Below, piece by piece: positions 18,585 to 50,312 of a DNA stretch of 52,625 nucleotides. A program made the position numbers and the translations under genes. The stretch comes from Bacteroidales bacterium (GTDB lineage: Bacteria; Bacteroidota; Bacteroidia; Bacteroidales; JAAYUG01). Location: assembly GCA_012517825.1 (NCBI GenBank), contig JAAYUG010000136.1:1-52625 (forward strand), given 5' to 3'. The first letter of the stretch is position 1. Each line of letters starts with the position of its first letter. Below the pieces are notes generated by a model, which ran no database searches, was not told where the DNA came from, and saw only the letters and a list, made by a program, of their open reading frames with translations.

Positions 18585-19131
18585 TCAATTGCAGGAAATA
18601 TTCGTCTTCCCAACCGTCAGCATTGCGGTTCCATTCTTTTCGTATGCCAATAACAGAAAAGCCGGCTTTGGTAAACAGCTTCAGGCTGATCTGGTTCGAA
18701 AGGGCAATATTGCAATAAACCTGATGAAGGCAAAGAATATCAAAAGCATAGGCAATAAGAACCCTGAGGGCGTTTTCGGCATAGCCTTTTCTTCTTTCTG
18801 AGGTGTCACCTATCAGGATGCCTATGCCGGCGCGAAGGTGAAAAGGGTCAAAATCATACAGTTCAATGGTTCCAACGGGCTTATGCTCTTTTATTGTCTC
18901 GATGATGAGCCTGAGCTGGCGGACTTCGAAAAGGTCTCTGGATGCGGTATCGATAAACTGCTGAAGCATGTACCTGGAAACCGGGGCAATCGTGTTCGAA
19001 ACTTTCCAGGTTGAGGGATTGTTCTCCCAGGCGTACAACAATTCAAGATCCGAAGGCTCAGGTGCACGCAAACGAACAATTTCATTAGCCAGCTGATCAG
19101 ACCAGAGAAGCGGTTTGGTTGTCACAGCCAT
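18562..19131 (-). CDS. GNAT family N-acetyltransferase (RimJ-like)
   Basis: A 189-residue GNAT protein with the RimJ/RimL/SpeG layout: LRAPEPSDLELLYAWENNPSTW near 21-42, IGTLIEL-type strands near 85-105, the acetyl-CoA loop ERRKGYAENALRVLIAYAF near 112-130 and a closing NQISLKLFTKAGFSVIG. The substrate could be a protein N-terminus, polyamine or sugar. Its start shares a base with the stop of the TPR/PD40 gene upstream (TAATG), so it is co-translated with it. Its 3' end overlaps the convergent HsdR-N-like gene by 23 bp. Confidence 0.88.
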   Translation of the reverse strand: MAVTTKPLLWSDQLANEIVRLRAPEPSDLELLYAWENNPSTWKVSNTIAPVSRYMLQQFIDTASRDLFEVRQLRLIIETIKEHKPVGTIELYDFDPFHLRAGIGILIGDTSERRKGYAENALRVLIAYAFDILCLHQVYCNIALSNQISLKLFTKAGFSVIGIRKEWNRNADGWEDEYFLQLINQKQIH

Positions 19132-20459
19132 TATTGGTTCTGGAGATCTTTTAACTGGTCACCGCTCAGAATGGTAACCCGGAAAATATCCATCATATCC
19201 GAATCGTCTTTTTTTCTGGTAATATATCCGGATGTTCCGTTTCCGACAGGGAAATAGAATTTATTATCGCCTGTAGTATTGATCGGGAAGCCAATATTAA
19301 CTGCCGGTGACCACTTATTATTGTCGAGTTTGGAGTAGAAGATGTCAAATCCTCCCATATTCTGGTGCCCCTGAGAAGCAAAGAAGAGTACACGTCCGGT
19401 GGAAGAGAGAAAAGGGGCGATTTCATCTGATTTGGTGTTGATATTGGGGCCGAGGTTTTCCGCCTTGCCCCAGTCTCCGTTTATTTTTTCCGAGCGCCAG
19501 ATATCAAAGCCGCCAAGTCCGCCCCGTCGGTTGCTGGAAAAATAGAGATATTTTCCATCGGGAGACAGGCAGGCATAGACTTCTGATTTGGAGGAATTAA
19601 TATTACTGTTAAGAGGTTGCATGATCGACCATTTGCCATTTTCCCAGCGGCTTACATAAATATGGCTGCTGCTTTTGATTTTCTTCACCAGGTAAAGCTC
19701 TGTGCCATCGGCTGAGATGCAGGTGGGATAGGATTCACCGTCAGAGCCAACCTGTGGTGTAATGTTTTCCGGTTCAGTCCACTGCCCGTCAACTTTTCGT
19801 GACATAAAAATGGCATTATAAAATTTCAGGCTGGTCATATAAATGATGACCGATTCATCGGGTGTAAGAACCGGGTCGTAATTATTGGAAGGTGTATTAA
19901 TGGGCTCTCCGAGGTTATGGAGGTCAATTTCTATGGGTTTGTCCTGAATCACCTTAGCCCTTTTGCAGGCCTCAATTTCGGCATTCACTACGCCTACATT
20001 ATAATTTCCTTCAAAATATCGTGAAGAGGTAAATTTATCGAGCATTTCCAGGGCCTTATCAAGCTGGTTGTTGATCCGGTATGCCTGTGCAAGGTAAAAG
20101 TAGGTATGAAACGGTGCTTTTGATTCTTCAAAAGTGCTTTTCTTGTATTGAATGGAGGCTTTTTCAATGGCCTGTTCAAAATATGGTATGGCTTTGTATT
20201 CTTCTCCGGGCATATTCAGGTAGCACATACCGATATGGTAATTGATATTTCCGTTTTTCGGATTATAGTCATGCAGTTTCAGAAAATAGTAAACAGCTTC
20301 TTTGTAGTCTTCTGATTCAAAGAAAAACATTCCGTTACTGAAAAGCTCCTTTCTTTCGGCGAGAGTCTGGCTTTTGAGCGGGAGTAGTGAGGCAAAAATA
20401 AGAATCAGGAGAATTAGCGATCCCTTTGAAAGGGATAATGCCGGTAATCTTTTCTTCAT
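19131..20459 (-). CDS. TPR/PD40 envelope protein, short form
   Basis: A 442-residue secreted protein from the ATG at 20459, which gives a signal peptide ending near LLPLKSQ. Residues 35-170 are TPR-like (LFSNGMFFFESEDYKEAVYYF, then AIPYFEQAIEKAS). Residues 180-430 hold a PD40 beta-propeller with repeated (D/S)G..LYF(S/A)S blades such as SPDGKYLYFSSNRRGGLGGFD. It ends after the propeller with no further domain. It is the smallest of three adjacent paralogues; the family includes the periplasmic PorE-type scaffolds of type IX secretion, but its own role is unproven. It has a perfect promoter and is coupled to the acetyltransferase gene. Confidence 0.85.
   Translation of the reverse strand: MKKRLPALSLSKGSLILLILIFASLLPLKSQTLAERKELFSNGMFFFESEDYKEAVYYFLKLHDYNPKNGNINYHIGMCYLNMPGEEYKAIPYFEQAIEKASIQYKKSTFEESKAPFHTYFYLAQAYRINNQLDKALEMLDKFTSSRYFEGNYNVGVVNAEIEACKRAKVIQDKPIEIDLHNLGEPINTPSNNYDPVLTPDESVIIYMTSLKFYNAIFMSRKVDGQWTEPENITPQVGSDGESYPTCISADGTELYLVKKIKSSSHIYVSRWENGKWSIMQPLNSNINSSKSEVYACLSPDGKYLYFSSNRRGGLGGFDIWRSEKINGDWGKAENLGPNINTKSDEIAPFLSSTGRVLFFASQGHQNMGGFDIFYSKLDNNKWSPAVNIGFPINTTGDNKFYFPVGNGTSGYITRKKDDSDMMDIFRVTILSGDQLKDLQNQ
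20420..20436. repeat. Perfect palindrome in signal-peptide coding region
   Basis: ATCCCTTTGAAAGGGAT (8-bp arms around one base) lies in frame inside the signal peptide of the TPR/PD40 gene. It encodes part of LSLSKGS between the basic N-terminus and the hydrophobic core. Confidence 0.4.
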
Positions 20460-20489
20460 GGCTCCTGAGTTGTAAATTTCAGTATTGAC

Positions 20490-20519
20490 CAAAATTAACA
20501 AATTGCTGTGAAATTACAA
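20490..20519 (-). promoter_or_regulatory. Promoter of short TPR/PD40 gene
   Basis: On the minus strand TTG (20517-20519), 19 bp, then TAATTTTG (20490-20497): a full -33/-7 match, 30 bp before the ATG at 20459. This separates the gene from the OmpA paralogue upstream as its own transcription unit. Confidence 0.7.
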
Positions 20520-20588
20520 GACAAAAAACGAAAGATCCCGGAACTGGGTTTAATGGCCAGAAAAGAGGTCTGTAAAATCAGCAACTGC

Positions 20589-22409
20589 TCACTTTTTTAG
20601 TGAAGCTGGTATCTGCAATGGTTCGATGATGAGCATGCCATTATCACCGGCAATAATTCTGAAATCAGCCCTTCGGTTATATTTTCTGCCTTCAGGATTA
20701 TCTGACCCGTCGGGATTATTATTGATAGCCACCGGCTGGCGCTCGCCCATAGAGGAAGTGGTGATTCTGGACGGGGCTATATGCCGGTTGGTCAGATACA
20801 GCTTAACCATTTCAGCTCTCTTTTTTCCGAGGTTCATATTGTATTCATCCGATCCTATGGCATCGGTGTGGCCAATAATTTCTATCCTCAGGTCGCTGTT
20901 TTGCTGCATGGCTTTTACAAGCAGGTCGAGCACGTTTCGGGTGTCTCCGGTAATCAATGCCTGGTTAAATCCGAATAAAACGGCATGAACAATAATTTTT
21001 TCCGGCAGAGCAGGAGGTATCACAACGGGGGGTTTTTCCGGCTTTCTGGCGGTATCAGGCAGAGGAACAACGGCTTTTTCTGCTTCGGCAGGTACAACCG
21101 GCGCGATTTTTTCTTCTTTTGTTTCCGGCACAAATTCAATCCGGTAAATATCATCGTCACCCAGTCCTCCTTCTTCGTAAAGGGCCATATAACCTGCTTT
21201 GCCATCCTGTACCGGATAGAAGAAAAGATCATCGTCGGTGGTATTCAGAGGATAGCCAAGGTTCTGCGGAGTATCCCATGTTCCGTCATCTTTCAGCCGG
21301 GAACAAAAGATATCGAACCCGCCCATGGTAGTATGGCCCTGCGAGCTGAAGAAAAGTTTCTTACCGTCAGGAGTGATAAAAGGACAATCTTCGTTGAGGG
21401 AAGTGTTAATTACCGCTCCGAGATTAACCGGTGGCCCCCAGTCACCGTTGGGGAGTTTGTCAGACCGGAAAATATCCATTCCGCCCAGCCCTCCGCTCCG
21501 GTTACTGGCAAAGTACATATGATTGCCATCGGCTGTAACACTGGCATGCGATTCCCAGAACTTGGAATTGATGCTTTTACCTACAGGCCGGGAACGGTTC
21601 CATTTGTCTTTCTCAAAACTGCTTGTATATACATCACTGTTGAACTGGTCTTCTTTTGTCAGGTAAAGTTGTGTCCCGTCAGGCGTAAGGTAGCAGGGAA
21701 ACTGATCTCCGTCAGACTGAAGCTGTTCGGTGATGTTTTCAGGTGCCGACCATTTTCCGTTTATTTTCCGGCTCATGTAAATGGCATCATAAAATTTCAG
21801 CCGGTTCACATAAATCAGAACCGATTCATCCTGTGAGACAACGGGTTTGTAATTGGCTTCTGCAGAATTTACAGGTTTTCCAAGATTGACTTTCGATATA
21901 GTTACGGGATGTTTTTGCATCTCTGCCGCATTTTTGCAAGCGTTGATCTGCTGAAGCGCAAATTGCGTCATTTCATTCGACTCGTTCTTCATGAGCTCCA
22001 AATACTTTTCGTACGCTTTTATCGCATTGTCAAGCTGGTTGTCAATGCGATACGCATTTCCGAGGAAGAGGAACACGTCGTACGGGGCCCTGGTCTCTTT
22101 TATGTTGCCTTCTTTGTAAACAGGTGTAAGATTTTGCGATGCTTTCTGAAGGTAAGGAATAGCTTCCTTTTTCTGGCCGGGAATGTTCAGGTAGCAGATA
22201 CCAATTCTGTAGTTGATGCTTGCGTTATCGGCGAACCCTCTTTTATATACTTTCATGTACTCGGGGAGTGCATCAGCGTAATATTCCTGCATGAAAAAGT
22301 ACTCAGCATCATTAAAAACTTCCTTAAGGGCTTCGCCGGCAGCTTGCGGGTAAGCTTCAAACGTAACAAACAAAAGGAAGAAAAAGATACCGGAAATTTG
22401 TTTCCTCAT
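20589..22409 (-). CDS. TPR/PD40/OmpA peptidoglycan-binding envelope protein
   Basis: A 606-residue protein with a signal peptide (MRKQISGIFFFLLFVTFEAYPQA), TPR-like helices (30-165), a PD40 propeller (about 185-425), a Pro-rich linker (about 435-470) and a C-terminal OmpA domain (about 475-600). The OmpA part has FGFNQALIT, the GHTDAIGSDEYNMNLGKKRA motif, whose Asp and Arg contact diaminopimelate in peptidoglycan, and RKYNRRADFRI. The domain order is that of PorE of Porphyromonas, a peptidoglycan-anchored T9SS component, except that no carboxypeptidase-regulatory-like domain lies between propeller and OmpA. It is a plausible PorE-type protein, but other PD40-OmpA families exist. Confidence 0.87.
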   Translation of the reverse strand: MRKQISGIFFFLLFVTFEAYPQAAGEALKEVFNDAEYFFMQEYYADALPEYMKVYKRGFADNASINYRIGICYLNIPGQKKEAIPYLQKASQNLTPVYKEGNIKETRAPYDVFLFLGNAYRIDNQLDNAIKAYEKYLELMKNESNEMTQFALQQINACKNAAEMQKHPVTISKVNLGKPVNSAEANYKPVVSQDESVLIYVNRLKFYDAIYMSRKINGKWSAPENITEQLQSDGDQFPCYLTPDGTQLYLTKEDQFNSDVYTSSFEKDKWNRSRPVGKSINSKFWESHASVTADGNHMYFASNRSGGLGGMDIFRSDKLPNGDWGPPVNLGAVINTSLNEDCPFITPDGKKLFFSSQGHTTMGGFDIFCSRLKDDGTWDTPQNLGYPLNTTDDDLFFYPVQDGKAGYMALYEEGGLGDDDIYRIEFVPETKEEKIAPVVPAEAEKAVVPLPDTARKPEKPPVVIPPALPEKIIVHAVLFGFNQALITGDTRNVLDLLVKAMQQNSDLRIEIIGHTDAIGSDEYNMNLGKKRAEMVKLYLTNRHIAPSRITTSSMGERQPVAINNNPDGSDNPEGRKYNRRADFRIIAGDNGMLIIEPLQIPASLKK

Positions 22410-22530: not shown

Positions 22531-25500
22531 TTATCCGATAGGGGTTGAATTTTCCGTCTTCTTTTTTCTTTTCTTTTTTTCTGCAATTAAGAGCAGGATG
22601 ATAAGAACAATGAGGAGCAGTGCTCCCAAAGCCGGAACTACAGGGAATGGCTTATGCTGCATACGTTCCGTTGCGGAAATGCGGGCAAGAAGATCCTGCA
22701 GCATATCATTGATAATTCGAACCAGCAGGTGCACAACGTCTTCCCGGCTGTATCCGTTGGCAGGGGCGTTCGTGTAAAGCCATTCGATCAGTTCATAAAC
22801 ATTTTTGAAGGGGTGGCCTGACCGGATCAGATGGTCAATTGTATTTTTGAGAGCACCTTCGGCATAGACAGACAGTTTTTCCTTGAACCAGGCAAGTTCT
22901 GTTTCATCATGGAATGCGAAGACGAATTGATTAATTTCTTCCGTTGTCAGCCCCAGTGCTTGTTTATTGCCAAGAATGCTGAGCAACAGTTCCTGGATGC
23001 TTTCAGTTTTTTCTTCCTTGAGTTCGAGAGGTTTTCCACTGGTTTGCTTTACAAAAAGCCTGAAGTTTTCCGCGATGTTTTCAGCCAGCATTCGCTCGTG
23101 AATCCGTCCGATCAGGATTCCAATATCCCTGTTTTCAAATTGCTGTCCGGTTGATACCTTAAACAATGATTCCAGAAGATCGGTTCTTGAATCAAAGGCT
23201 AATTTTTTTCTTCCGTTAGCTGATAAATAACCTTTCAGCGAGGGATCGGCCAGATCCTGCATTTCAGTGAACAGGTCGCCGGCTTCCTGGGAAGCAACAG
23301 CCTTCAGGAACAGATTAAAAACTTCGCCGGTGGTACTTTTCCCCCAGCGTTTGCTTTCAATTATATTTCCGGGGAAAGAAGGTGCAAGAAACAGTTTTTT
23401 GGTTTGCGCTGATTGCAAAAGGGTTTTAATGGAGCCAGTGCTCAGGGAGAGCATTTTGTCATATACGGCTGCCGGTTCCAGCTTGTCCGATAGAGCCATG
23501 GCGATGGCCTTTCTGACAGCATCGGATTTTTCGGCCGGGAGGGCTTCCGTAATGTAATTGAAATAATCGCTGCGGGCGAATTTCTTAATTATTTCATAAT
23601 CGTTTTCCCTGATAAAATCAGCCAGGGTATCATCGGCCTGGAATACCATTTCATTCCAGGCACGTTCCAGCATCAGCCGGTCATCAGTTTTTTTCAGGGC
23701 CTGCAGCAATTCATCTTCACTATATCCTCCTGAAGGAGCCTGTTTGAACAGATGGTCAACCAGTGCCGGTACAGAAGCCAACCCGAGCTTATACGGATCG
23801 GTTTTTTCGAGCTGATACCGGAGATTTCCGTTTGTCAGAGGAATCATTTTCCTGAGGTACATTTCCACCTGACGGGAAGCAAGGTAATTGGCCGCCGTCT
23901 GATTGACCGTGGCGGGATTCAATCTTACAGGACTTTTCTTTGAGCCAATGAACCGCATGAGTTCCTCAAGAGAGGAAATACCGTGTTTCTGCAAATCGAC
24001 CGAAAGAAGTTTTCCGGCGGTATCGGCGGGAAACATCATAGCCATCCGGTAAAGATGGTCTTCCGGATCGCCTTCAAATGCTGCAGCGGTAAGCATTCTC
24101 AGGAATTCTGATTCCGAATAACCGTTCAAAGGAGCCAGGCGCAATAGCGTGTCGGCGTACCCCTGGTTTGTATGGATTCCTGACTTGACCGGATCGAGTT
24201 TACTGATGGTGGTATGCAGGCTGTTGGTGGAATAGTGGAGAAGGACTTCACGGAATGCTGCCACATTGTTTTGCTCGCTCGTGGCCGCTCCTGTAAACAT
24301 TTCCAGCAGATCGCCGGTAGTGTATTTTCCTTCGCCGGTATGATCGAGGAGATACCTGACCAGTTGTTCCGGAGAATAGAGTTTCTTTTCAAGGGAAGGC
24401 ACGTTTGTGATGAATCTGCGGAGATTGCCTCCCGCATAGGGGATCAGAATCTCCAGCCATTCGTTCATCGGGTAGGTAGAAGCAGCCCTTACAAGAATCA
24501 TCTGCAGATCTGACTCCGGAATTCCGCTTGCTTTTGCCTGTTCAAAAAGGTAATCAGTGATGGAAGGAATGGTTTTCAGGGACGAGGGAATCTGCAGGTT
24601 GTGCAGAAAGGCATAGCTGTTTCCTGATGCGAAGGCAGAAAGCTTTTCAATAAACTGCTGCCCCGGCACCACGTCGGAAGCAGCCACCATGGCAAGTGAA
24701 TGGAGGACATCCTGCTTGGTAAATCCTTTTTCGGCAGCATGTTCGATGAGGTAATTTATCAGCTGGGTTCCTTCCGATATACCGAGTTGTGCAGGATCCA
24801 TCTTTTGCAGTTCCTGTCTGAGAGCACCGGTTGAATTGGCCTGCATGCGCCTGATGAGTTCGTCAAGAGGAATGTGGGCCGACAGATAGGCCAGGCTGAT
24901 GAGAAATTCTTCCTGCGAAAAACCAAGAGAATCAGCATGCATGAACAAATATCCGGCCAGTTCTCTGGCGGATGGATTCCCCATTTTCTCGGGCCGTATG
25001 TTTTGAAGGGCTTTGCGGATGTTTTCAGTTCCTGACTGGTTCAATTGATCCAGTAAGTTTTTTCCTCCGGGAGTGAACAATTGTTTATGAACATCCTTCT
25101 GCTGAACTGGTATCTGAAGGTCGATGAATACCGTATCGGAGGCTTTCTGCATGCCGGCGCCTGTGGCCGTGAGCACTACCACATTCAGGCCCGGTTCGGG
25201 ATAATAGACGTAGGTAAAACGTTTCTTTTCAATGGGTATCAGATCGGATCGGACAGGTTGGTTGTCGACAAATGCATTGACTTCAAGTGTATTGGCATTT
25301 TCTGTTGTAATGGTAATGCGGACCGGCCCGGGCTGTTTCAGCGAGAATGAATTCTGGCGCACGGAAAGCTTTGGCGGTTCCGATGTGATTCTGGTTTCCG
25401 GAGCGATTGTTTTTTCTTCCGGCGGAAGTTTCAGCTGGGAAGACAATACGATATCTCCTTCTTTATAGTCTTTTGGCACAAGAAGACGCTGGATATGAGG

Positions 25501-27000
25501 AAGATAACCCGGCAATTTAACCAGGAGATCGTATTCACCTGCAGGAACTGTAATACTGTATTCACCGGCAGGGTTTGCGGTGGTTTTGTAAACAGTATCC
25601 CTTGTCAGGATCTGAAGAGCGTAAACGTTGGCTGTTTTAGTGCCTGCTTCCACCTTTCCGGGAAGAGCAACAATGCCCCTGATGGTGAATTTGCGGGGAT
25701 GAACTCCTGAGTAAATTTCAAATCGGAAAATATCAGCGCGCCCAAGTGTGTTATTTTCCAGGTATCTTGATATGTAGGCAAATGTTCCGTTTTTGACAGG
25801 AACAAAAAACTGGTCATTGTCGGTTGTATTGATCGGATATCCTGCATTTACGGGTACTGCCCATGAACCGTCATCCAGCAGGGTGGTGTAGTTTATGTCA
25901 TATCCTCCCATGTTCAGGTGACCGTAACTGCTGAAATACAATGTTTTGCCATCTTCGGTGATAAAAGGGGTGTCCTCATTGTATTTGGTATTGACTACCG
26001 GGCCGAGATTCACTGCAGGGCCCCAGTCTCCGTTGGGGGTACGGACCGATTTGTAAATGTCGAGGCCGCCAAATCCTCCTTTTCGGTTACTGGTAAAATA
26101 CAGGGTGGTTCCGTCGGCTGAAATGCAGGCATGGGATTCCCAGTACTTGGTGTTGATGTTGGAGTTCAGAGCCCGCACTTTGGTCCATTTCCCGTTTACC
26201 AGTTTGCTGGTGAAGATGGTGCCAAGATAATTGTCGTTGCTGTAGAAAAATGCTTCCGTGCCATCGGCTGAAAGGGAGCAGGGGTACATATCTCCGTCCA
26301 CACCGAGGTCGAACATAATATTCTCTGGCTCAGTCCATTGACCATTTACTTTTTTCGAGTAAAAAACCGCATCGTAGAACTGGAGTTTCCTGATAAAAAG
26401 CATGGAGGTTTCGTCGTGAGTTACCACCGGATTTGTTTCAGCGAAGCGGCTGTTAATGGGTTCGCCCAGGTTGACAAAGTCCAGATCAATAGGTTTTTTC
26501 ATGAGTTTAATGGCGTTCCGGCATGCTTCTATCTGTTCATCAACAAGGGTAGCATCATATATTTTGGGATCAAGGATTTTTCTGAAATGGGAGTAAGCCT
26601 CTATGGCCTCATCAATCCGGTTATTGACGAGATAGGCTTTGCCAAGGTAAAACCAGGCATCCAGGGGAGCCCGGGTTTCCTTAAAGCTGTTTTCCTTATA
26701 ATCTTTGGATACATTTTTTGTGGCCTGCTCAAGGTATCCGATGCTTTCTTCCTTCTGATACGGGTCATTCAGCAGGCAAACACCGATACGGTATTTCAGG
26801 TTGTCATTTTCGGGAAACAATTTTAAAAGCCGCATATAAATGGGCAGAGCTTCCTGGTATTCTTCAAAAAGAAAGTAGGATTCTGCTTCGAGGAAAGATT
26901 CCCTGGGATCAGGTTTCCGCGTTCTCTGGTCGGCTTTTTGCCCCTGAATATTCCCTGAAATCAGGAATAAAAGCAGGGATGCTACAGTCAAATATTTCAT
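22531..27000 (-). CDS. Giant TPR/PD40 protein with about twelve novel helical repeats and C-terminal membrane anchor
   Basis: 1489 residues. In order: signal peptide (1-20), TPR-like helices (32-165), PD40 propeller (about 175-430, blades such as SADGTTLYFTSNRKGGFGGLD), a carboxypeptidase-regulatory-like beta domain (about 437-515, with NPAGEYSITVPAGEYDLLVK), a further beta domain (about 545-630), an alpha-helical region from about 655 to 1442, then one membrane helix (about 1453-1472) followed by AEKKKRKKK. The helical region divides into about twelve degenerate units of 65-69 residues; the best-kept share G-x-L-x-x-x-L, a (D)P-x-x-x-G step and Y-L-(F/I)-x-x-A-x-x-x-G-(Y/F). I do not recognise these repeats. 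A cleaved N-terminus plus a stop-transfer helix predicts a periplasmic body held in the inner membrane by its C-terminus. It is the first of three paralogues, with no promoter box seen in the 195-bp upstream gap. Confidence 0.85.
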   Translation of the reverse strand: MKYLTVASLLLFLISGNIQGQKADQRTRKPDPRESFLEAESYFLFEEYQEALPIYMRLLKLFPENDNLKYRIGVCLLNDPYQKEESIGYLEQATKNVSKDYKENSFKETRAPLDAWFYLGKAYLVNNRIDEAIEAYSHFRKILDPKIYDATLVDEQIEACRNAIKLMKKPIDLDFVNLGEPINSRFAETNPVVTHDETSMLFIRKLQFYDAVFYSKKVNGQWTEPENIMFDLGVDGDMYPCSLSADGTEAFFYSNDNYLGTIFTSKLVNGKWTKVRALNSNINTKYWESHACISADGTTLYFTSNRKGGFGGLDIYKSVRTPNGDWGPAVNLGPVVNTKYNEDTPFITEDGKTLYFSSYGHLNMGGYDINYTTLLDDGSWAVPVNAGYPINTTDNDQFFVPVKNGTFAYISRYLENNTLGRADIFRFEIYSGVHPRKFTIRGIVALPGKVEAGTKTANVYALQILTRDTVYKTTANPAGEYSITVPAGEYDLLVKLPGYLPHIQRLLVPKDYKEGDIVLSSQLKLPPEEKTIAPETRITSEPPKLSVRQNSFSLKQPGPVRITITTENANTLEVNAFVDNQPVRSDLIPIEKKRFTYVYYPEPGLNVVVLTATGAGMQKASDTVFIDLQIPVQQKDVHKQLFTPGGKNLLDQLNQSGTENIRKALQNIRPEKMGNPSARELAGYLFMHADSLGFSQEEFLISLAYLSAHIPLDELIRRMQANSTGALRQELQKMDPAQLGISEGTQLINYLIEHAAEKGFTKQDVLHSLAMVAASDVVPGQQFIEKLSAFASGNSYAFLHNLQIPSSLKTIPSITDYLFEQAKASGIPESDLQMILVRAASTYPMNEWLEILIPYAGGNLRRFITNVPSLEKKLYSPEQLVRYLLDHTGEGKYTTGDLLEMFTGAATSEQNNVAAFREVLLHYSTNSLHTTISKLDPVKSGIHTNQGYADTLLRLAPLNGYSESEFLRMLTAAAFEGDPEDHLYRMAMMFPADTAGKLLSVDLQKHGISSLEELMRFIGSKKSPVRLNPATVNQTAANYLASRQVEMYLRKMIPLTNGNLRYQLEKTDPYKLGLASVPALVDHLFKQAPSGGYSEDELLQALKKTDDRLMLERAWNEMVFQADDTLADFIRENDYEIIKKFARSDYFNYITEALPAEKSDAVRKAIAMALSDKLEPAAVYDKMLSLSTGSIKTLLQSAQTKKLFLAPSFPGNIIESKRWGKSTTGEVFNLFLKAVASQEAGDLFTEMQDLADPSLKGYLSANGRKKLAFDSRTDLLESLFKVSTGQQFENRDIGILIGRIHERMLAENIAENFRLFVKQTSGKPLELKEEKTESIQELLLSILGNKQALGLTTEEINQFVFAFHDETELAWFKEKLSVYAEGALKNTIDHLIRSGHPFKNVYELIEWLYTNAPANGYSREDVVHLLVRIINDMLQDLLARISATERMQHKPFPVVPALGALLLIVLIILLLIAEKKKRKKKTENSTPIG
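22675..25038 (-). repeat. Coding region of about twelve degenerate 65-69-residue helical repeats
   Basis: Residues 655-1442 of the giant TPR/PD40 protein. Unit boundaries are set by a recurring small-residue/Gly-Asn/Ser step followed by Leu, for example TGALRQELQKMDPAQLG, GNLRYQLEKTDPYKLG, NSLHTTISKLDPVKSG and GALKNTIDHL. Mid-unit phrases also recur: LINYLIEHAAEKGF, LVDHLFKQAPSGGY and LIEWLYTNAPANGY. The DNA repeats are diverged, so these are old protein repeats and not a recent tandem duplication. Confidence 0.75.
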
Positions 27001-27195: not shown

Positions 27196-28542
27196 TCATA
27201 TGGGTCGGTCGGGTGAAGCTTCTTCGAGCATTCGTGCAACTTCCCGGAGAAATTTTCCTCCCAGGGCTCCGTCAATAACACGGTGGTCGTAGGAAAGAGA
27301 AAACACACAAAGGCTTCGTATTCCTATGGACTCTTTTCCTTCCCACAGAACAACGGCCGGTTTTCTCCGGATTGCACCTATGGCAAGAATGGCCGATTCA
27401 GGCTGGTTGATGATGGGAGTACCTGTGAGGCTTTCGGCCATTCCGAGGTTGGTGATGGTGAAAGTGCCTCCGCTGGTTTCAGATGGGAGAAGCGCCCCCT
27501 GTCTTGCTCTTGCAACAAGGTCATTCAACCTAATGGCAATGCCGGAAAGGTTCAGCAGATTGGCTTTATGGAGTACCGGCACAATCAGGTTTCCGTCAGC
27601 CAAAGCAGTGGCAACCCCAATATTGATGTTCTTTTTTCTGAGGATTGTTTCTCCTTCTACCGAAACATTGATGCCGGGGAAATGGGCAAGGGTCTGAGCG
27701 ACAGCTTCAATAAACAATGCGGTGAAGGTAAGAGGAACACCATATTTTGCTTCAAAGTCTTTTTTGCGGGATTCTCTCCAGTTGACCAGGGTGGTGAGGT
27801 CGGCTTCGTAAAATGAAGTCACATGCGGGGCGGTAAATTTTGACTTCACCATATTCCGGGCAATGATTTTGCGAACCCGGTCCATTGGAATTACTTCCGT
27901 ATCTTCATCGCCGGGTATAGCCGCGGAAGGTTTTTCCTGATCAGCAGATATAGGGGCCTGGCCGGGGGGCATTTCTGCCGATAAATTCTCATGGCCCAGT
28001 TGCCGTGCTTTCAGGAAAGCATACAGGTCTTCCCGCGTTATTCTGCCTTCATGTCCTGTTCCTTTTATGGAGGCAAGTGATTCCATTCCGATGCCAAGCT
28101 CCTGAACGACCTTCCGTAAAAAAGGGGAAAGAAAGAAGCCCGGACCGTGATCTTTTGCAGGAGGGTACGGTTCAGAAGGGATCTTTTCTGTCGGAGTGTT
28201 TTGCGGTCGGGGGGAGAGTATTTCTGTTTCTTTTTCCGGCATCTGTTCGGAGGGAGGAGTGATTTCCCGGTCGGGAGCAGATATGTCTTCCAGAGTTCCT
28301 TCCGGTTGAAACAGGGCAATGGTTTCGCCCACCTTTGCAATATCCCCTTCTTTCTTAACAATTTTGCGGATTTTCCCTTTATGAGGTGCAAAGATTTCAC
28401 TGTCAACCTTATCAGTAGCTATTTCTACCAGCGGGGTGTCCTGTTCGACCGTGCTTCCCTCACCTACCAGCCAGCGTATAATGGAAGCCTCAATGATGCC
28501 TTCTCCCATAGAGGGGATTCTTATTTCGGTAAGAGTTGCCAT
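27196..28542 (-). CDS. Dihydrolipoamide acyltransferase (E2) of a 2-oxoacid dehydrogenase
   Basis: 448 residues with three domains. The lipoyl domain (1-78) has the lipoylation motif EIATDKVDSEI at Lys45; a Pro/Glu-rich linker follows; the E1/E3-binding domain (about 140-178) reads LSPFLRKVVQELGIG ... GHEGRITREDL; the catalytic domain (about 215-445) ends with SYDHRVIDGALGGKFL, giving active-site His420 and Asp424. It is probably the partner of the fused E1 at 12797-15214. Whether the complex acts on branched-chain 2-oxoacids or pyruvate cannot be decided here; the fused E1 type favours the former. The gap to the upstream glycosyltransferase gene is 9 bp. Confidence 0.93.
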   Translation of the reverse strand: MATLTEIRIPSMGEGIIEASIIRWLVGEGSTVEQDTPLVEIATDKVDSEIFAPHKGKIRKIVKKEGDIAKVGETIALFQPEGTLEDISAPDREITPPSEQMPEKETEILSPRPQNTPTEKIPSEPYPPAKDHGPGFFLSPFLRKVVQELGIGMESLASIKGTGHEGRITREDLYAFLKARQLGHENLSAEMPPGQAPISADQEKPSAAIPGDEDTEVIPMDRVRKIIARNMVKSKFTAPHVTSFYEADLTTLVNWRESRKKDFEAKYGVPLTFTALFIEAVAQTLAHFPGINVSVEGETILRKKNINIGVATALADGNLIVPVLHKANLLNLSGIAIRLNDLVARARQGALLPSETSGGTFTITNLGMAESLTGTPIINQPESAILAIGAIRRKPAVVLWEGKESIGIRSLCVFSLSYDHRVIDGALGGKFLREVARMLEEASPDRPI

Positions 28543-28551
28543 ATTGGATGG

Positions 28552-30525
28552 TTATCGGCCAAGTTTTCTGAATGCTTTTGCAATTATATAAAGGTCACGG
28601 GTAATCCGGTAATCGCGGGCGTAATTTATGTTCAGCGTATCGGCAAGTTCGGCGGAAAGTTTTCCGCTTTCGTACAGATCAGCAGGGGAGAGGATTCCGG
28701 GGCGCAGGGGGGGCAGTTGGTAGGCTGAATCAGGGATTCCGGAAAAATACCCCACCCAGGTATTTTTACCTGCCAAAACACGGAATATATTTCTGAGCAG
28801 GCGGAATGGCCGTGGGATGATCCAGGCGATGAAAGGAAAAACAAGCAGAAGGAGGAAAGCTATGCCGGAATCCATCAGTCTCTTGATTCGCCGAACCGAA
28901 GGACGAGCTATCAGGTTATAGCGCAGGGTGTAGATTGCTCCCGGGGAATCAATGCTGCTGCTGCCGATAACAGATACGCCTTCTTCCGGAGCAATTTTGA
29001 ATTCTGTTCGTGTTTCGCTCAGGCGGAGCATGTTTTCAATTACTTTACCTGAAGGGATATCCCGGGCACAGAAAATTATTTCGTCAACGGCATGCACTCT
29101 GATAATTTCGGGAAGCTGTTCAGGTGTTCCGAGGTAATCTGTTTTTGCATTATCGGTTCGTTTTTCAGAGACATATCCCGCCAGTTCAAAGGGCAGACCT
29201 GTTTCGTTGAGGAGGGAAGTAACCCGCTGAACTTCATCATATGACCCGGCAACAACAATTCTTTTCTTTTTCGGGAAGCTGAGGGCATTTTCTTTCCAGC
29301 CGGCCAACCGCATGATGATCCTTTCGAGAGGAAGGGCAATCAGTGTCCATAGGGTTCCCAGCAGGATAAGCGCCCTGGAAAACCGGAGTGAAGCGGGAAG
29401 AAGGGCATACACCACCAGAATGAAAAGGCTTCCTGCCAGTATTCCCCGGATAATTCTCCAGAGCCTGACCGGCGGTTCATAGCCTCCGGAATAGAACACT
29501 GTAACCAGCCATACAAAAACATAGGCCGGAACGACAAACTGCATGTATTCAGGGGGATAATAGTTCTTCTGCCCGAATTTGAATTCTTCCCAGAAAGGCC
29601 TGATCAGCATGTAGCCAAGATATATTACTGCAGCATCGGCTACCGGCAGGCTGATGCGGAAAAGAATCCGCTGCAGTGCCGAAAATCCTGCCCTGATCCA
29701 GATTGCCATGTGGATCAGCAGGGAGAAAAACCGGAAACTGCCTGAAGAAAAGTGCTTCCGGGCGAAAATCATCATGGCATTGTAAAAAGTATACACATAA
29801 TTCAGGCTTCCCTTTTTGGTGCTTTCTCCCTTGTAATGAATGATAGTTGTTTCAGGAAAATAATAATTTTCATAGCCCGCCTGTTTTATCCTCCAGGAAA
29901 GATCAATGTCTTCGCCATACATAAAGAATTCCTCATCGAGCAGTCCGGTTTTTTCCAGAGCCTCTTTACGGATAAACATAAAAGCACCGGGCAGAATGTC
30001 AATGGAATGAATCTGATCCGAAGGCAGGTGGCCGAGGTAGTATCGCCCAAAAATACGTGAACGGGGAAATAAAGAGGTCAGACCTGTGATTTTCCAGAAA
30101 GAAACCATAGGAGTGGGGAATCCTCTTTTTGATTCCGGCAGAAAATTTCCTTTTCCATCGATCATTTTGACACCCATTGCTCCGGCATCCGGATGGGATT
30201 CCATGAACCGGAAACATTTTTCAAGTGTGTCTTCTTCGATAACCGTATCGGGATTGAGCAAAAGAATGTATTTGCCTGAGGCAATTCTGATGCCCTGATT
30301 GTTGGCCCTGGAAAAGCCGACGTTTTGCTGATTTTCAATCAACCTGACCATGGGGAATTTCTCCCTTACCATGTGGCATGATCCGTCAACCGAGGCATTG
30401 TCAACAACAATTATCTCTGTTGAGAGGGAATGTGATGCCTTTAATACCGAATTAAGGCATTGCTCAAGAAAATGCCGAACGTTGTAATTGACAATGATAA
30501 CAGAAATATCGGTCACCGCCTGCAT
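28552..30525 (-). CDS. Family 2 glycosyltransferase fused to a degraded sugar-phosphate transferase-like region
   Basis: 657 residues. Residues 5-290 are a GT2 rhamnosyltransferase-like domain: DISVIIVNYNVRHFLEQCL, the metal-binding LLNPDTVIEED near 92 and MYGEDIDLSWRIKQAGY near 203. From about 290 the protein has membrane segments, a nucleotide-binding-like stretch (RIVVAGSYDEVQRV near 425) and a C-terminal part resembling WcaJ/WbaP phosphoglycosyl transferases (RRIKRLMDSGIAFLLLLVFPFIAW near 553). The catalytic KFRSM-type segment expected in those enzymes is not visible and that region is short. It probably works in surface polysaccharide assembly, with the C-terminal half as scaffold. The gap to lysA upstream is 86 bp. 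Confidence 0.82.
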   Translation of the reverse strand: MQAVTDISVIIVNYNVRHFLEQCLNSVLKASHSLSTEIIVVDNASVDGSCHMVREKFPMVRLIENQQNVGFSRANNQGIRIASGKYILLLNPDTVIEEDTLEKCFRFMESHPDAGAMGVKMIDGKGNFLPESKRGFPTPMVSFWKITGLTSLFPRSRIFGRYYLGHLPSDQIHSIDILPGAFMFIRKEALEKTGLLDEEFFMYGEDIDLSWRIKQAGYENYYFPETTIIHYKGESTKKGSLNYVYTFYNAMMIFARKHFSSGSFRFFSLLIHMAIWIRAGFSALQRILFRISLPVADAAVIYLGYMLIRPFWEEFKFGQKNYYPPEYMQFVVPAYVFVWLVTVFYSGGYEPPVRLWRIIRGILAGSLFILVVYALLPASLRFSRALILLGTLWTLIALPLERIIMRLAGWKENALSFPKKKRIVVAGSYDEVQRVTSLLNETGLPFELAGYVSEKRTDNAKTDYLGTPEQLPEIIRVHAVDEIIFCARDIPSGKVIENMLRLSETRTEFKIAPEEGVSVIGSSSIDSPGAIYTLRYNLIARPSVRRIKRLMDSGIAFLLLLVFPFIAWIIPRPFRLLRNIFRVLAGKNTWVGYFSGIPDSAYQLPPLRPGILSPADLYESGKLSAELADTLNINYARDYRITRDLYIIAKAFRKLGR

Positions 30526-42397: not shown

Positions 42398-43699
42398 TCA
42401 AAGATACGGAAGAACCTTTTCGAGCGCTATTCCGCGTGAACCTTTGATCAGTATCTGACATCCCTTAAGAGGATTCCTTTTAAGTTCCTCTATGAGTTCA
42501 TCGGTTGAGGTAAAAGCCATTGTTCTTCCTTCTTTGGAGGCATTGAGGAATTCGGGACCCACCGTAATGATTTTTTCAGCAGGAAGCGATTCAGTGAGCC
42601 GGAGGATGCGTGAATGTTCTTCGCCGGCATAGGATCCCAGTTCAAGCATATCGCCCAGAATTACCACCTTGCGGGGGTGCGGCAGAGAAGCAAAATGGAG
42701 CAGGGCAGCTTCCATGCTCGATGGGTTGGCATTGTACATATCGAGTATCAGTTCATTGTACCGGGTTTTCTGGAACTGGCTCCGGTTGTTCCGGGGCATG
42801 TACTGTTCAATTGCTGAACAAATGTCTTTTTCAGGTATTCCAAAGTGCATTCCGGTGCAAATTGCCGCCATGGCATTGGCAAGGTTATACTGTCCGACCA
42901 GATTGGTTTTTATCGTATGTCCTTCCGAACCGCCGGAAGGATACCAGGTAAAAGATAAAAAAGGTTCTTCCGGAATCAGTTGTCCCCGGCAATCACATCC
43001 GGGCTGACTGCCGTAGGTAATTTTTTTCAGGTTCAGTGGAAGCGCCTGTTCCACCAGAAGCGGGTTGTCAGCGTTAAGGAAAATGGTTCCTCCTGTTTCC
43101 TCCAGAAAACGGTAAAGTTCGGTTTTGGCCCTGATAACTCCTTCAAAGGATCCGAATCCTTCGAGGTGGGCCTTACCGATAGTGGTAATGAGGCCATAGC
43201 CGGGCAGGGCAAGGCGGCATAAAAAGTCGATTTCACCCGGGTGATTGGCGCCCATTTCAATAACGGCAATTTCTGTTTCGGAACTGATACGGAGAAGGGT
43301 CAGGGGAACTCCGATATGGTTATTGAGATTGCCTTCGGTAAAAACCACCTTTTTTTTACGCGAAAGTACTGCAGCGATAAGCTCTTTTGTAGTAGTTTTT
43401 CCGTTGCTTCCGGTGATTCCGATTACAGGAACGGGGAACTGCCGGCGGTGGTAGAAGGCAAGTTGCTGAAGTGTTTCCAGCGCATCGGGCACCAGCAGGC
43501 ATTTTTCTGAAACAACGTGCTCTTTTTTGTCCACGATGGCTAATGTGCATCCTTTGCTGAGGGCATCGGCTGCATAGGCTCCTCCTTCGGAGATGTTTCC
43601 CCTGAGGCCGAAGAAAAGGGAGCCCGTATGGGCTTTTCTGCTGTCAATGACAACAGAAGGATTGTGAAGAAAAATTTGATGGAGTTCCCTTATTTCCAT
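42398..43699 (-). CDS. murF: UDP-N-acetylmuramoyl-tripeptide--D-alanyl-D-alanine ligase
   Basis: A 433-residue Mur ligase that adds D-Ala-D-Ala to the UDP-MurNAc-tripeptide, the last cytoplasmic step of the peptidoglycan precursor. The ATP loop GITGSNGKTTTKELI is near 94-108, AVIEMGANHPGEI near 145, and LNADNPLL near 203. The C-terminal domain has ILDMYNANPSSMEAAL near 318 and VVILGDMLELG near 344. It lies downstream of gldJ, as in other Bacteroidota, but a hairpin terminator separates the two. Confidence 0.95.
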   Translation of the reverse strand: MEIRELHQIFLHNPSVVIDSRKAHTGSLFFGLRGNISEGGAYAADALSKGCTLAIVDKKEHVVSEKCLLVPDALETLQQLAFYHRRQFPVPVIGITGSNGKTTTKELIAAVLSRKKKVVFTEGNLNNHIGVPLTLLRISSETEIAVIEMGANHPGEIDFLCRLALPGYGLITTIGKAHLEGFGSFEGVIRAKTELYRFLEETGGTIFLNADNPLLVEQALPLNLKKITYGSQPGCDCRGQLIPEEPFLSFTWYPSGGSEGHTIKTNLVGQYNLANAMAAICTGMHFGIPEKDICSAIEQYMPRNNRSQFQKTRYNELILDMYNANPSSMEAALLHFASLPHPRKVVILGDMLELGSYAGEEHSRILRLTESLPAEKIITVGPEFLNASKEGRTMAFTSTDELIEELKRNPLKGCQILIKGSRGIALEKVLPYL

Positions 43700-43723
43700 A
43701 TCGTTTTGTTTGCCAGGAAGGAA

Positions 43724-43763
43724 ATAAAACAGGGCTGCTGAAAACGTATTTCTGCAGCAGCCC
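43724..43763 (-). terminator. Rho-independent terminator after gldJ
   Basis: On the minus strand GGGCTGCTG (43763-43755), a 14-base loop, CAGCAGCCC (43740-43732), then TGTTTTAT. A 9-bp GC-rich stem with a U-rich tail starts about 30 bp after the gldJ stop. Confidence 0.75.
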
Positions 43764-43794
43764 CGTAGATTTTATTCAGCAAACGGAATCGTAT

Positions 43795-45285
43795 TTATTT
43801 GCCGGCAGGAGGTCCGACGCGTGTCATAGCACAGCGGAATCCGAGGTCGTCGCGCGAAGCTTTTTCGTGCAGGTACCGGCGGGTACCGGGGCTGAGCCAG
43901 TAGGCACGGTCTCTCCAGCTACCGCCTTTGTAAACACGTACTTCGTCATTGATAAGCGATGCGTAATCCTGTTCTTTCTGTGCATACATGCGCTGTGAAC
44001 CAGGGCCTTTATCGGCATCTTCATTGGTGTATTCAATACTTGATGTAAAGTCGCCGTCCTGGTAATTCCTGTAATCTGAGTGGTCGTAATTCCAGCGCTG
44101 GGCAGTTTTTTCAGCGGGTACGGGATGGTATCTCAGGCGGCCGAGGCTGTCTTTCTGGGCAACTTTTCCTTCTTCATCCCTTTCCAGTTCCATGAACACG
44201 TTTCCACGGAAGGGGTTGAATTCGTCAAAATCTTCAAAAGAGAGCGGACGATAGACATCGGCTACCCATTCATTCACGTTTCCGGCCATGTTGTAAAGGC
44301 CATAGTCATTGGGCCAGTAAGATTTTACAGGAGCCGGTATTTCGGCATTATCGTTAAGATTTCCGGCAGTACCCATCATGTCGCCACGGCCACGGACAAA
44401 GTTAGCCCGCATCTCGCCTCTGTATTTTTTAACATCGTTCCGCACGTTGTGTCCGTTCCATGGATAAATACGGCGTTCATAAATTCTTTCGTCATAGGAG
44501 TTGCCAATGAGGGCAAAGGCTGCGAATTCCCATTCGGCTTCGGTCGGGAGGCGGTATTTCGGCAGGAGAATTCCGTCTTCCAGACGCACTTTTCTTTCTT
44601 CTTTGTTCGGATCAAGGGAAGGCAGGTTTTGTTTTACCAGGCCTTCGTACTGGCCGGCAAGGTATGCATCGGTATTGAAGTTTTCCGCTCCCTGCTGGTT
44701 GGGATCCCACTGAAGAATTCCTTTGTCGATCAGAATTTTTTCATTCACCCTGTCAGTTCTCCAGGCACAGTAATCATTGGCCTGCAGCCAGTTGACACCT
44801 ACTACCGGATACTCATTGTAAGCGGGATGCCTGAAATAGTATTGCACGTAAGGTTCATTGTAAGCCAGCGGCCTTCTCCATACGAGCGTATCGGGCAGGG
44901 CATTTTTATAAACATCGGGGTACTGGGCAAAAACCCTGCTGATCCAGTAAAGGTATTCACGGTAGTCTACATTTCGCACTTCGGTTTCGTCCATATAGAA
45001 CGAACTGACAGTAACCCGGCGGGGAACATTGTTCCAGTCGAACATGACATCCTGTTCAACCCGGCCCATGGTAAATGAACCACCTTCAATGAACACCAGG
45101 CCAGGACCTGTTGTCTGTTCATATTTGGTCACAACTTCAAAACCACCGTTTTCACGATCATTATATGCCCATCCTGTTTTTGTTGATTCCTTGCCGGATT
45201 GTGTGATGTCTCCGCCGCTTTTACAGGAGGACAAAACAAGAGTTCCAGCTACTAAAACAGCTAAAAAAACTGCCTTGATTTTCAT
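43795..45285 (-). CDS. gldJ: Gliding motility / type IX secretion lipoprotein GldJ
   Basis: 496 residues from the ATG at 45285, which gives a lipoprotein signal ending LSSC (Cys21); upstream in-frame codons overlap the promoter. The body is a formylglycine-generating-enzyme-like (sulfatase-modifying factor) fold: GPGLVFIEGGSFTMGRVEQD near 60-79, SFYMDETEV, YPVVGVNWLQANDYCAWRTDRVNE near 160-183, RLPTEAEWEFAA, MAGNVNEWVADVYRP and a final GGSWRDRAYW...RDDLGFRCA. The GRVEQDVMFDWNN segment and long insertions are typical of GldJ rather than GldK. GldJ is needed for gliding and stabilises other Gld proteins in Flavobacterium. Position next to porU/porV and murF fits. Confidence 0.93.
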   Translation of the reverse strand: MKIKAVFLAVLVAGTLVLSSCKSGGDITQSGKESTKTGWAYNDRENGGFEVVTKYEQTTGPGLVFIEGGSFTMGRVEQDVMFDWNNVPRRVTVSSFYMDETEVRNVDYREYLYWISRVFAQYPDVYKNALPDTLVWRRPLAYNEPYVQYYFRHPAYNEYPVVGVNWLQANDYCAWRTDRVNEKILIDKGILQWDPNQQGAENFNTDAYLAGQYEGLVKQNLPSLDPNKEERKVRLEDGILLPKYRLPTEAEWEFAAFALIGNSYDERIYERRIYPWNGHNVRNDVKKYRGEMRANFVRGRGDMMGTAGNLNDNAEIPAPVKSYWPNDYGLYNMAGNVNEWVADVYRPLSFEDFDEFNPFRGNVFMELERDEEGKVAQKDSLGRLRYHPVPAEKTAQRWNYDHSDYRNYQDGDFTSSIEYTNEDADKGPGSQRMYAQKEQDYASLINDEVRVYKGGSWRDRAYWLSPGTRRYLHEKASRDDLGFRCAMTRVGPPAGK

Positions 45286-45309
45286 AGGAGTTTTGATTTG
45301 ATTCAGATT

Positions 45310-45341
45310 CAAATATACACAAAAATTTTTTTGATGTACAA
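45310..45341 (-). promoter_or_regulatory. Promoter of gldJ
   Basis: On the minus strand TTG (45339-45341), 21 bp, TATATTTG (45310-45317). The perfect -7 box ends 24 bp before the gldJ ATG and lies in the gap after the PorP-like gene, so gldJ can be transcribed on its own. Confidence 0.65.
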
Positions 45342-45347
45342 ACATAA

Positions 45348-46355
45348 CTAAATTTTGGGACATTTTATTGCATGAATGGTTTTTCTTTTCTTTATCTGGT
45401 CAACTTTTAATGAACAGGTAACTTCCCAGGAACCTTTCCGGGGAAGCCGGGAAGCTGACAAAGCGTCGGCATCGTACGAAACAGCCACCTGGAGGCGTCC
45501 CGCATTCATTCCGGCAAGGGCAACCACGGTAATCCAGCTGAGGTTGGTATTGCTTCGGGCCCAGATACCGGCATAAAGCGGTTTAACTGAAAAATAGCTT
45601 CCTGTCTGAATCAGTGTCAGATTGCCCTGATGCCAGAATGTGAGGTTGGGCGAAATGCTGAGAGGCTGCAAGCTCAGAAGGCTCCGCGAAATTTCGAAGT
45701 TATAACCGGCATGGGCCGTAACACGCAACGGAATCCGGTATCCGCCTGACAGCAAAGGCCGGGTCAGATGGTGGGCCGATGCCCCAAAATACATGGACCG
45801 GTAAACTGCTGCAAAGCCTGTTGCGAAATCGGGAACTGTTTTACCGGGAGGCAGGCCGGTCTCATTTCCCGGAAGGGTTGTCAGAGTGGCCGGGTCAATC
45901 TGATCGGGGAACAGAAGCTCCGAAGTATTAAATCCGCTTTGAATTCCTCCGGCCTGTATGGCAAAACTGGCCGATAGGGCTGAGGAGATCACGGCCTCAT
46001 AACTGTAAATGCATTCAGCCCGCGTAATAGAAAAAAGTCCGGAATAGTTTTCCCGAACCACCGCAAATCCTGCTGCTCCATGTATCCGTTCGACCGGCAG
46101 GCTGGCTGAAACGCCATAGTACCGGAAAGGGTTATTCAGTTGAAGCCATTGGCTCCGGTGAAAAACAGAAACCGATCCGTATCCGCGGGCTCCTGCAAAG
46201 GCGGGGTTCAGATTCAGCAACTGCTCATACGGCTGCGAATAAACAGCATCCTGAGCGGAAACCGATATATTGATCACCTGCATGACGAACAATATAAACC
46301 ACCACCGGCGTAAAACAATTCCTGTAATTTTCACTAAGTTTACACCCGACAACAT
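45348..46355 (-). CDS. PorP/SprF family type IX secretion membrane protein
   Basis: 335 residues with an uncleaved-looking long N-terminus, then a signal core ending NISVSAQ and an outer-membrane beta-barrel. Family marks: DAVYSQPYEQLLNLNPAFAG near 37-56, GSVSVFHRSQWLQLNNPF near 60-77, GFAVVRENYSG near 96, and the C-terminal IKCPKI, the Cys-Pro ending typical of SprF/PorP. Family members connect outer-membrane T9SS steps with particular secreted proteins. The true start may be a downstream ATG (for example the one opening MQVINISVSAQ). It diverges from porU. Confidence 0.87.
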   Translation of the reverse strand: MLSGVNLVKITGIVLRRWWFILFVMQVINISVSAQDAVYSQPYEQLLNLNPAFAGARGYGSVSVFHRSQWLQLNNPFRYYGVSASLPVERIHGAAGFAVVRENYSGLFSITRAECIYSYEAVISSALSASFAIQAGGIQSGFNTSELLFPDQIDPATLTTLPGNETGLPPGKTVPDFATGFAAVYRSMYFGASAHHLTRPLLSGGYRIPLRVTAHAGYNFEISRSLLSLQPLSISPNLTFWHQGNLTLIQTGSYFSVKPLYAGIWARSNTNLSWITVVALAGMNAGRLQVAVSYDADALSASRLPRKGSWEVTCSLKVDQIKKRKTIHAIKCPKI

Positions 46356-46423
46356 TGGCTTGTTGCAATAAATATACGAAGATAACGTTTAATGGTTACA
46401 TTTTCTTGCCTGTTCATTCTCCG

Positions 46424-50263: not shown

Positions 50264-50291
50264 TTTTTTTTACCGGTTGGGCAATAAATTT

Positions 50292-50299
50292 TATATTTG
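50292..50299 (+). promoter_or_regulatory. -7 box for porV
   Basis: TATATTTG, a perfect TAnnTTTG, lies in the porU-porV gap, 14 bp before the first porV ATG. The nearest upstream TTG (50277-50279) is only 12 bp away, so the -33 element is uncertain. Confidence 0.5.
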
Positions 50300-50312
50300 T
50301 CAGGTTTACTAA

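Follow-up and report, generated by a model that had tools for sequence, protein, structure and literature searches.

The 52,625 nucleotides of Bacteroidales DNA analysed here (hereafter the window) encode a protein of 1489 residues. A sequence-only reading proposed that much of its C-terminal half consists of about twelve helical repeats of an undescribed kind, which might form a rod across a large part of the periplasm. This raises the questions of whether the repeats are real, whether they belong to a known family, and what such a protein might do in the cell envelope.

A twelve-unit repeat array

When residues 651-1446 were compared with themselves, without any other sequence, the best offsets were 333, 133, 132, 66, 399, 324, 266 and 200. 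Seven of these eight are multiples of about 66.5 residues, the exception being 324. The top summed score was 2612; across 100 shuffles, no offset scored above 1118.

We also built a unit profile from 168 units belonging to other families, excluding the window's genus and family. It matched the window protein with 240 bits in twelve local matches, versus at most 4.6 bits for composition shuffles and at most 10.2 bits for unrelated neighbouring open reading frames. The relatives in this profile were found via the window protein, and its independence is therefore one of sequence and not of discovery; the self-comparison is unaffected by this.

The array thus divides into twelve units (Table 1), with 61-68 residues between successive starts. 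Units 1-7 and 12 each gave an independent E-value of 2e-6 or lower with the other-family profile. Units 9, 10 and 11 were weak (0.04, 0.02 and 0.002), and units 3 and 6 were also weak in one other scan. Unit 8 had no profile match of its own and was placed by spacing. The window units are 20-40% identical to one another for most pairs. The family consensus of the unit, xxGxLxxxLxxLxLxxxxIxxxxxLxxYLxxxAxxxGYSxxDVxxxL, agrees with the motif of the sequence-only reading. The earlier estimate of about twelve repeats in residues 655-1442 is confirmed for residues 657-1442, with eight clear units, three weak ones and one placed by spacing, and the unit size then given as 65-69 residues holds.

Table 1. 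Features of the repeat-bearing gene and its two downstream paralogues. Positions are those of the window; starts in parentheses are those of units 8 and 11.
Feature	Residues	Position	Strand	Evidence
Gene for PorE-like, repeat-bearing protein with predicted C-terminal anchor, 1489 aa		22531..27000	-	Open reading frame; same-plan orthologues in ~60 genomes
Signal peptide, without lipobox cysteine	1-20	26941..27000	-	Sequence MKYLTVASLLLFLISGNIQG-Q
TPR domain	~30-165	26506..26913	-	Pfam TPR_2 3.9e-07
PD40 beta-propeller	~170-430	25711..26493	-	Pfam PD40 6.4e-14
Carboxypeptidase-regulatory-like domain (CRD)	~440-525	25426..25683	-	Pfam CarboxypepD_reg 1.2e-05, under gathering score; strands in orthologue model
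Putative Ig-like beta domain	~540-640	25081..25383	-	Strands 541-618 in AlphaFold model of orthologue L088
Array of twelve ~66-residue helical units	657-1442	22675..25032	-	Unit-profile matches and self-comparison
Unit 1	657-722	24835..25032	-	E 1.7e-08
Unit 2	723-789	24634..24834	-	E 3.7e-15
Unit 3	790-855	24436..24633	-	E 1.7e-06
Unit 4	856-923	24232..24435	-	E 3.6e-12
Unit 5	924-989	24034..24231	-	E 2e-10; hhalign to unit profile containing unit 5, probability 99
Unit 6	990-1055	23836..24033	-	E 1.9e-06
Unit 7	1056-1121	23638..23835	-	E 2e-12
Unit 8	(1122)-1186	23443..23637	-	Spacing only; helical in model, pLDDT <50
Unit 9, weak	1187-1250	23251..23442	-	E 0.039, opening part only
Unit 10, weak	1251-1311	23068..23250	-	E 0.021
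Unit 11, weak	(1312)-1379	22864..23067	-	E 0.0021
Unit 12	1380-1442	22675..22863	-	E 2.8e-13
Predicted C-terminal transmembrane helix	~1454-1473	22582..22641	-	Mean hydropathy 3.29; helix in AlphaFold model
Basic, presumably cytoplasmic tail		22534..22581	-	Sequence EKKKRKKKTENSTPIG; basic tail in nearly all orthologues
Downstream paralogue, 606 aa: TPR, PD40 propeller, OmpA_C (peptidoglycan-binding type)		20589..22409	-	Pfam OmpA 2.1e-20, PD40 5e-19
Second downstream paralogue, 456 aa as listed: TPR, PD40 propeller, without OmpA_C		19131..20501	-	Pfam PD40 1.6e-18

Search for a known repeat family or fold

Neither Pfam nor NCBIfam scans of the whole protein gave a match above cut-off in the array. 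The same was true when 25 units were scanned individually with Pfam, where even at an E-value of 1 no TPR match appeared. Within residues 657-1442 no TPR match rose above the gathering score; the best TPR stretches were those of residues 30-141. A profile search of the PDB by sequence produced no significant match. Its best results, a designed protein (0.013) and BURRH (0.015), were regarded as chance or as a helix-cap motif. BURRH/TALE-like solenoids do share a recurring G-[YF]-[ST]-x-x-D-[VI] helix-start motif with the array, but the best single stretch of the match reached 2.3 bits, and their units have 33 residues as opposed to about 66 here. The likeness is likely to lie in the shared helix-cap motif only.

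The AlphaFold model of the array, which is poor in units 8-11, gave no Foldseek match in the PDB at an E-value of 0.001 (best 0.017, a designed protein). VIA-align of the same model reached Z-scores of at most 5.6, over 68 residues; the protein with this value, SLC9C1, was not taken as a meaningful relative. As the model is of limited quality, the fold search does not establish a new fold.

The statement that the pattern fits no described repeat family was borne out to the extent that Pfam, NCBIfam and the PDB contained no significant relative by sequence; the confident match to TPR, HEAT or another clan that was to be looked for did not appear over cut-off in the Pfam scans. A description of such a repeat was not found in the open-access papers searched either. 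These results support the view that the unit is new relative to Pfam, NCBIfam and PDB sequences. Regardless of function, the unit of about 66 residues represents a helical repeat family absent from the libraries searched, to which it could be added.

A PorE-like head and a predicted inner-membrane anchor

The signal peptide supports a periplasmic location of the window protein. Positions 15-30 contain no cysteine, so that a lipoprotein signal is not present. The C-terminal transmembrane helix and the basic tail predict an anchor in the inner membrane. The region of about residues 540-640 had no Pfam match, and we refer to it as Ig-like because of the strands in the orthologue model.

The NCBIfam model T9SS_PorE (NF052230) matched residues 38-520 with an E-value of 8.7e-39 and 133.3 bits, not reaching its cut-off of 600. 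PorE (PG1058) of Porphyromonas gingivalis is a periplasmic lipoprotein of the type IX secretion system (T9SS) and contains TPR, propeller, CRD and OmpA_C domains (PMC5053529). PorE attaches to PorP, a barrel in the outer membrane, and through its C-terminus to peptidoglycan; the authors suggested that PorP is held by one of the two N-terminal PorE domains and peptidoglycan by the C-terminus (PMC9143113). In the window protein, signal peptide, TPR, propeller and CRD follow one another as in PorE, with TPR_2 and PD40 above and CarboxypepD_reg below the Pfam cut-off. In contrast to PorE, it lacks the lipobox, and the Pfam scan found no OmpA domain in it, while its downstream neighbour has one (2.1e-20). 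Instead, it has the Ig-like domain, the helical array and the predicted C-terminal membrane anchor.

The genome of the window also contains a separate true PorE (733.6 bits, above cut-off), GldM and seven PorP-family barrels. In view of this separate PorE and of the missing OmpA_C and lipobox, we regard the window protein as a PorE paralogue and not as PorE itself. What appears to be new is the undescribed repeat, attached to a protein of a known kind, the PorE-type periplasmic proteins.

Two further comparisons concern the head. Its TPR and PD40 half resembles the CHU_0125 family of OmpA-like outer membrane integrity proteins (NF053607, E-value 7e-39), but OmpA_C is missing and the score of 133.8 bits is far from the cut-off of 620. 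The propeller of orthologue L088 resembles TolB (Foldseek E-values 5.9e-09 to 8e-09; VIA Z 16.1 over 215 residues to 6pnv, rmsd 3.3), a component of the Tol-Pal system, which is an envelope-spanning tether. However, five-blade glycoside hydrolase propellers scored equally well or higher (Z up to 17.9), and the likeness to TolB therefore reflects a common fold and not membership.

Distribution and unit number

Of 393 Bacteroidales genomes sampled, 30 encode the repeat, each in a single protein. In a class sample of 395 genomes, the repeat occurred in the window genome only, and a phylum sample of 395 genomes gave only one weak match, to a frame of 62 codons (5.9e-4). The named relatives that carry the repeat are metagenome-assembled genomes of uncultured bacteria, labelled Bacteroidales, Bacteroidetes or Bacteroidota. 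Since the unit is nearly absent beyond this order, it can serve as a marker for these uncultured families.

Sixty distinct orthologues follow a common plan of signal peptide, TPR, propeller, CRD, Ig-like domain, 1-12 units, C-terminal helix and basic tail. The hydrophobic helix was present in 58 of the 60, the other two running off the contig end, and the median number of K/R residues after it was six. An LPXTG-like or PEP motif was found in none of 57 tails, which also had no conserved column before the helix.

Array lengths divided by 66 cluster near 1.1, 2.1, 3.0, 4.2, 5.1, 6.1 and 12.1, corresponding to 1, 2, 3, 4, 5, 6 and 12 whole units. Most orthologues have 4-6 units, and several have one or two. 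On a tree of the head domains, unit number requires at least 15 changes, compared with at least 28 in 200 label shuffles, indicating that it is a lineage-stable trait. In the window's family, all three members have 12 units, including L042 from another genus, whose units are mostly about 20-40% identical to the corresponding units of the window's genus.

A second long array occurs in L092, which branches within a clade whose members mostly have four units. Its 799 residues comprise 11 units of 68-76 residues by alignment. Units 2 to 9 are most alike among themselves, and residues 716-1310 consist of a 75-residue form of the unit repeated in tandem, with identities between copies of up to 49%. 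Apparently the array grew when unit 2 of an ancestor with four units was copied again and again, adding seven copies. The presence of arrays of about 800 residues in the window's family and in L092 among four-unit relatives indicates that long arrays arose at least twice. The idea that both contain exactly 12 units, as judged by length, was rejected on the basis of the alignment; they are alike in total length alone (795-802 residues), and two examples do not justify a claim.

Structure predictions

AlphaFold models were obtained for L088 (five units, 1034 residues, 29 sequences; mean pLDDT 82, pTM 0.49) and for residues 640-1489 of the window protein (mean pLDDT 67.5, pTM 0.35). Both are confident at most locally, and domain placement and total length are unreliable. 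The L088 model has about four helices per unit, following the beta domains. In the window model, the array region is all helix, as the sequence-only reading had expected of the units; helices in units 1-7 and 12 are confident, mostly with pLDDT 60-95, and much of units 8-11 is below 50. Foldseek and VIA results for the whole L088 model were filled by propellers and did not probe the array.

A four-helix unit folded as two HEAT-like layers would add, by our estimate, about 2 nm. If so, the reach would be about 24 nm for twelve units and about 8 nm for four. An extended rod bridging the periplasm is plausible for the window protein, but the model, confident only locally, does not establish one of tens of nanometres. 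With 4-6 units, as in most orthologues, such arrays alone could not span the periplasm on the same estimate.

Genomic neighbourhood

At most loci, the repeat gene lies beside two tandem paralogues with PorE-type heads, one with and one without OmpA_C (19131-22409 in the window). A neighbouring PD40 paralogue is kept in most sampled families, with the loci of family f38 as the exception. The gene directly upstream (27196-28542) encodes a 2-oxoacid dehydrogenase E2 and the conserved gene beyond it (28552-30525) a glycosyltransferase; an initial assignment of the latter as dehydrogenase E1 was rejected. We saw no gene for a regulator in the conserved neighbourhood.

The window also contains a T9SS cluster (42398-51548) with GldJ (491.6 bits), a PorP/SprF-family barrel, the PorU sortase (1277 bits) and PorV (492.6 bits), adjoined by MurF. 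The four T9SS genes (43795-51548) are about 17-24 kb from the repeat gene, the PorP-family gene about 18 kb, and this closeness is suggestive only. None of the orthologues is adjoined by a PorP gene. Few genomes contain the repeat gene, whereas GldM, used as a T9SS marker, occurred in 89 of the 99 sampled from the order, indicating that the repeat gene is not a core part of the T9SS and that the T9SS does not predict it.

Elsewhere in the window's genome (G000:C64:27920-29774), a PorP-family barrel gene directly adjoins a PorE-like gene, an arrangement described for Flavobacterium johnsoniae (PMC9143113).

Possible role of the protein

Three features alter the picture of a simple periplasmic rod: the predicted inner-membrane anchor, the PorE-like head, and the range of 1-12 units among orthologues. 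Since the head resembles a part of outer-membrane secretion and the protein ends in what is predicted to be an inner-membrane anchor, the window protein probably ties the two membranes together. We give about even chances to the more specific proposal that this PorE paralogue is a tether between a partner at the outer membrane and the inner membrane, with the helical units as spacer. After export to the periplasm by the signal peptide, the TPR/propeller/CRD head would bind a partner on the outer-membrane side, as PorE does (PMC9143113), perhaps one of the seven PorP-family barrels. The OmpA_C end with which PorE grips peptidoglycan would be replaced by the Ig-like domain, a solenoid spacer of four-helix units and the membrane anchor, whose transmembrane helix would halt in the inner membrane, leaving the basic tail in the cytoplasm. 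Unit number, stable within lineages and 12 in the window protein, may set the reach. Together with the OmpA_C paralogue, presumably anchored to peptidoglycan, and the anchorless paralogue, one outer-membrane-side head would then have three fates.

Orthologues with one or two units are too short for the periplasm on their own, making a fixed ruler unlikely; a lineage-specific reach and a role in binding are both possible. Helical solenoids such as TPR or HEAT arrays commonly bind proteins, and the units could keep several proteins of the periplasm close to the inner membrane, their number following that of the partners. The strong divergence of the window units, each of which could bind something else, and the shortness of some arrays for a spacer are consistent with this. 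A conserved exposed patch was not identified, albeit without a systematic search, and the seven added copies of one unit type in L092 suggest a longer array more readily than additional partners. We consider such a platform possible, though distinctly less probable than the tether. Slightly more doubtful still is the strongest form of the tether proposal: a solenoid built for the purpose would physically join a T9SS-type complex in the outer membrane to the inner membrane, its copy number following from the envelope geometry of each lineage. About 800 residues would then have been reached twice independently, through 12 units of about 66 in the window's family and 11 of 68-76 in L092.

The predicted single-pass topology with its large periplasmic part would also suit an envelope sensor, whose head monitors the outer membrane or cell wall and whose transmembrane helix relays the signal to the cytoplasm. 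The short basic tail leaves no space for a signalling domain, and the conserved neighbours include no regulator; we consider this unlikely. It is more improbable that array length has no role and that unit number drifts neutrally, as the badly degenerate units 8-11 of the window might suggest: the open frame and the periodicity are retained across about 60 orthologues, and 12 units persist in the window's genus and in L042 despite the low identity of corresponding units. We give the least weight to a surface protein whose array is displayed outside the cell and whose C-terminal helix serves as a sorting signal that a sortase-like enzyme removes. A C-terminal helix with a basic tail is a feature of LPXTG and PEP-CTERM type signals, and long repeats elsewhere are often adhesins, but the 57 tails carry no such motif ahead of the helix, unit number is lineage-stable rather than hypervariable, and the TPR/PD40/CRD head points to a periplasmic protein.

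If the tether proposal is correct, the protein represents a third way of anchoring a PorE-type head, at the inner membrane rather than at peptidoglycan, and the orthologues offer a natural series of spacers with 1-12 units for testing how length affects the cell envelope.

Five orthologues (L095, L097, L100, L102 and L106) seem to have an extra Ig-like domain ahead of the units, judging by the sequence near residue 660. This suggests that the putative spacer may also be lengthened by beta domains.
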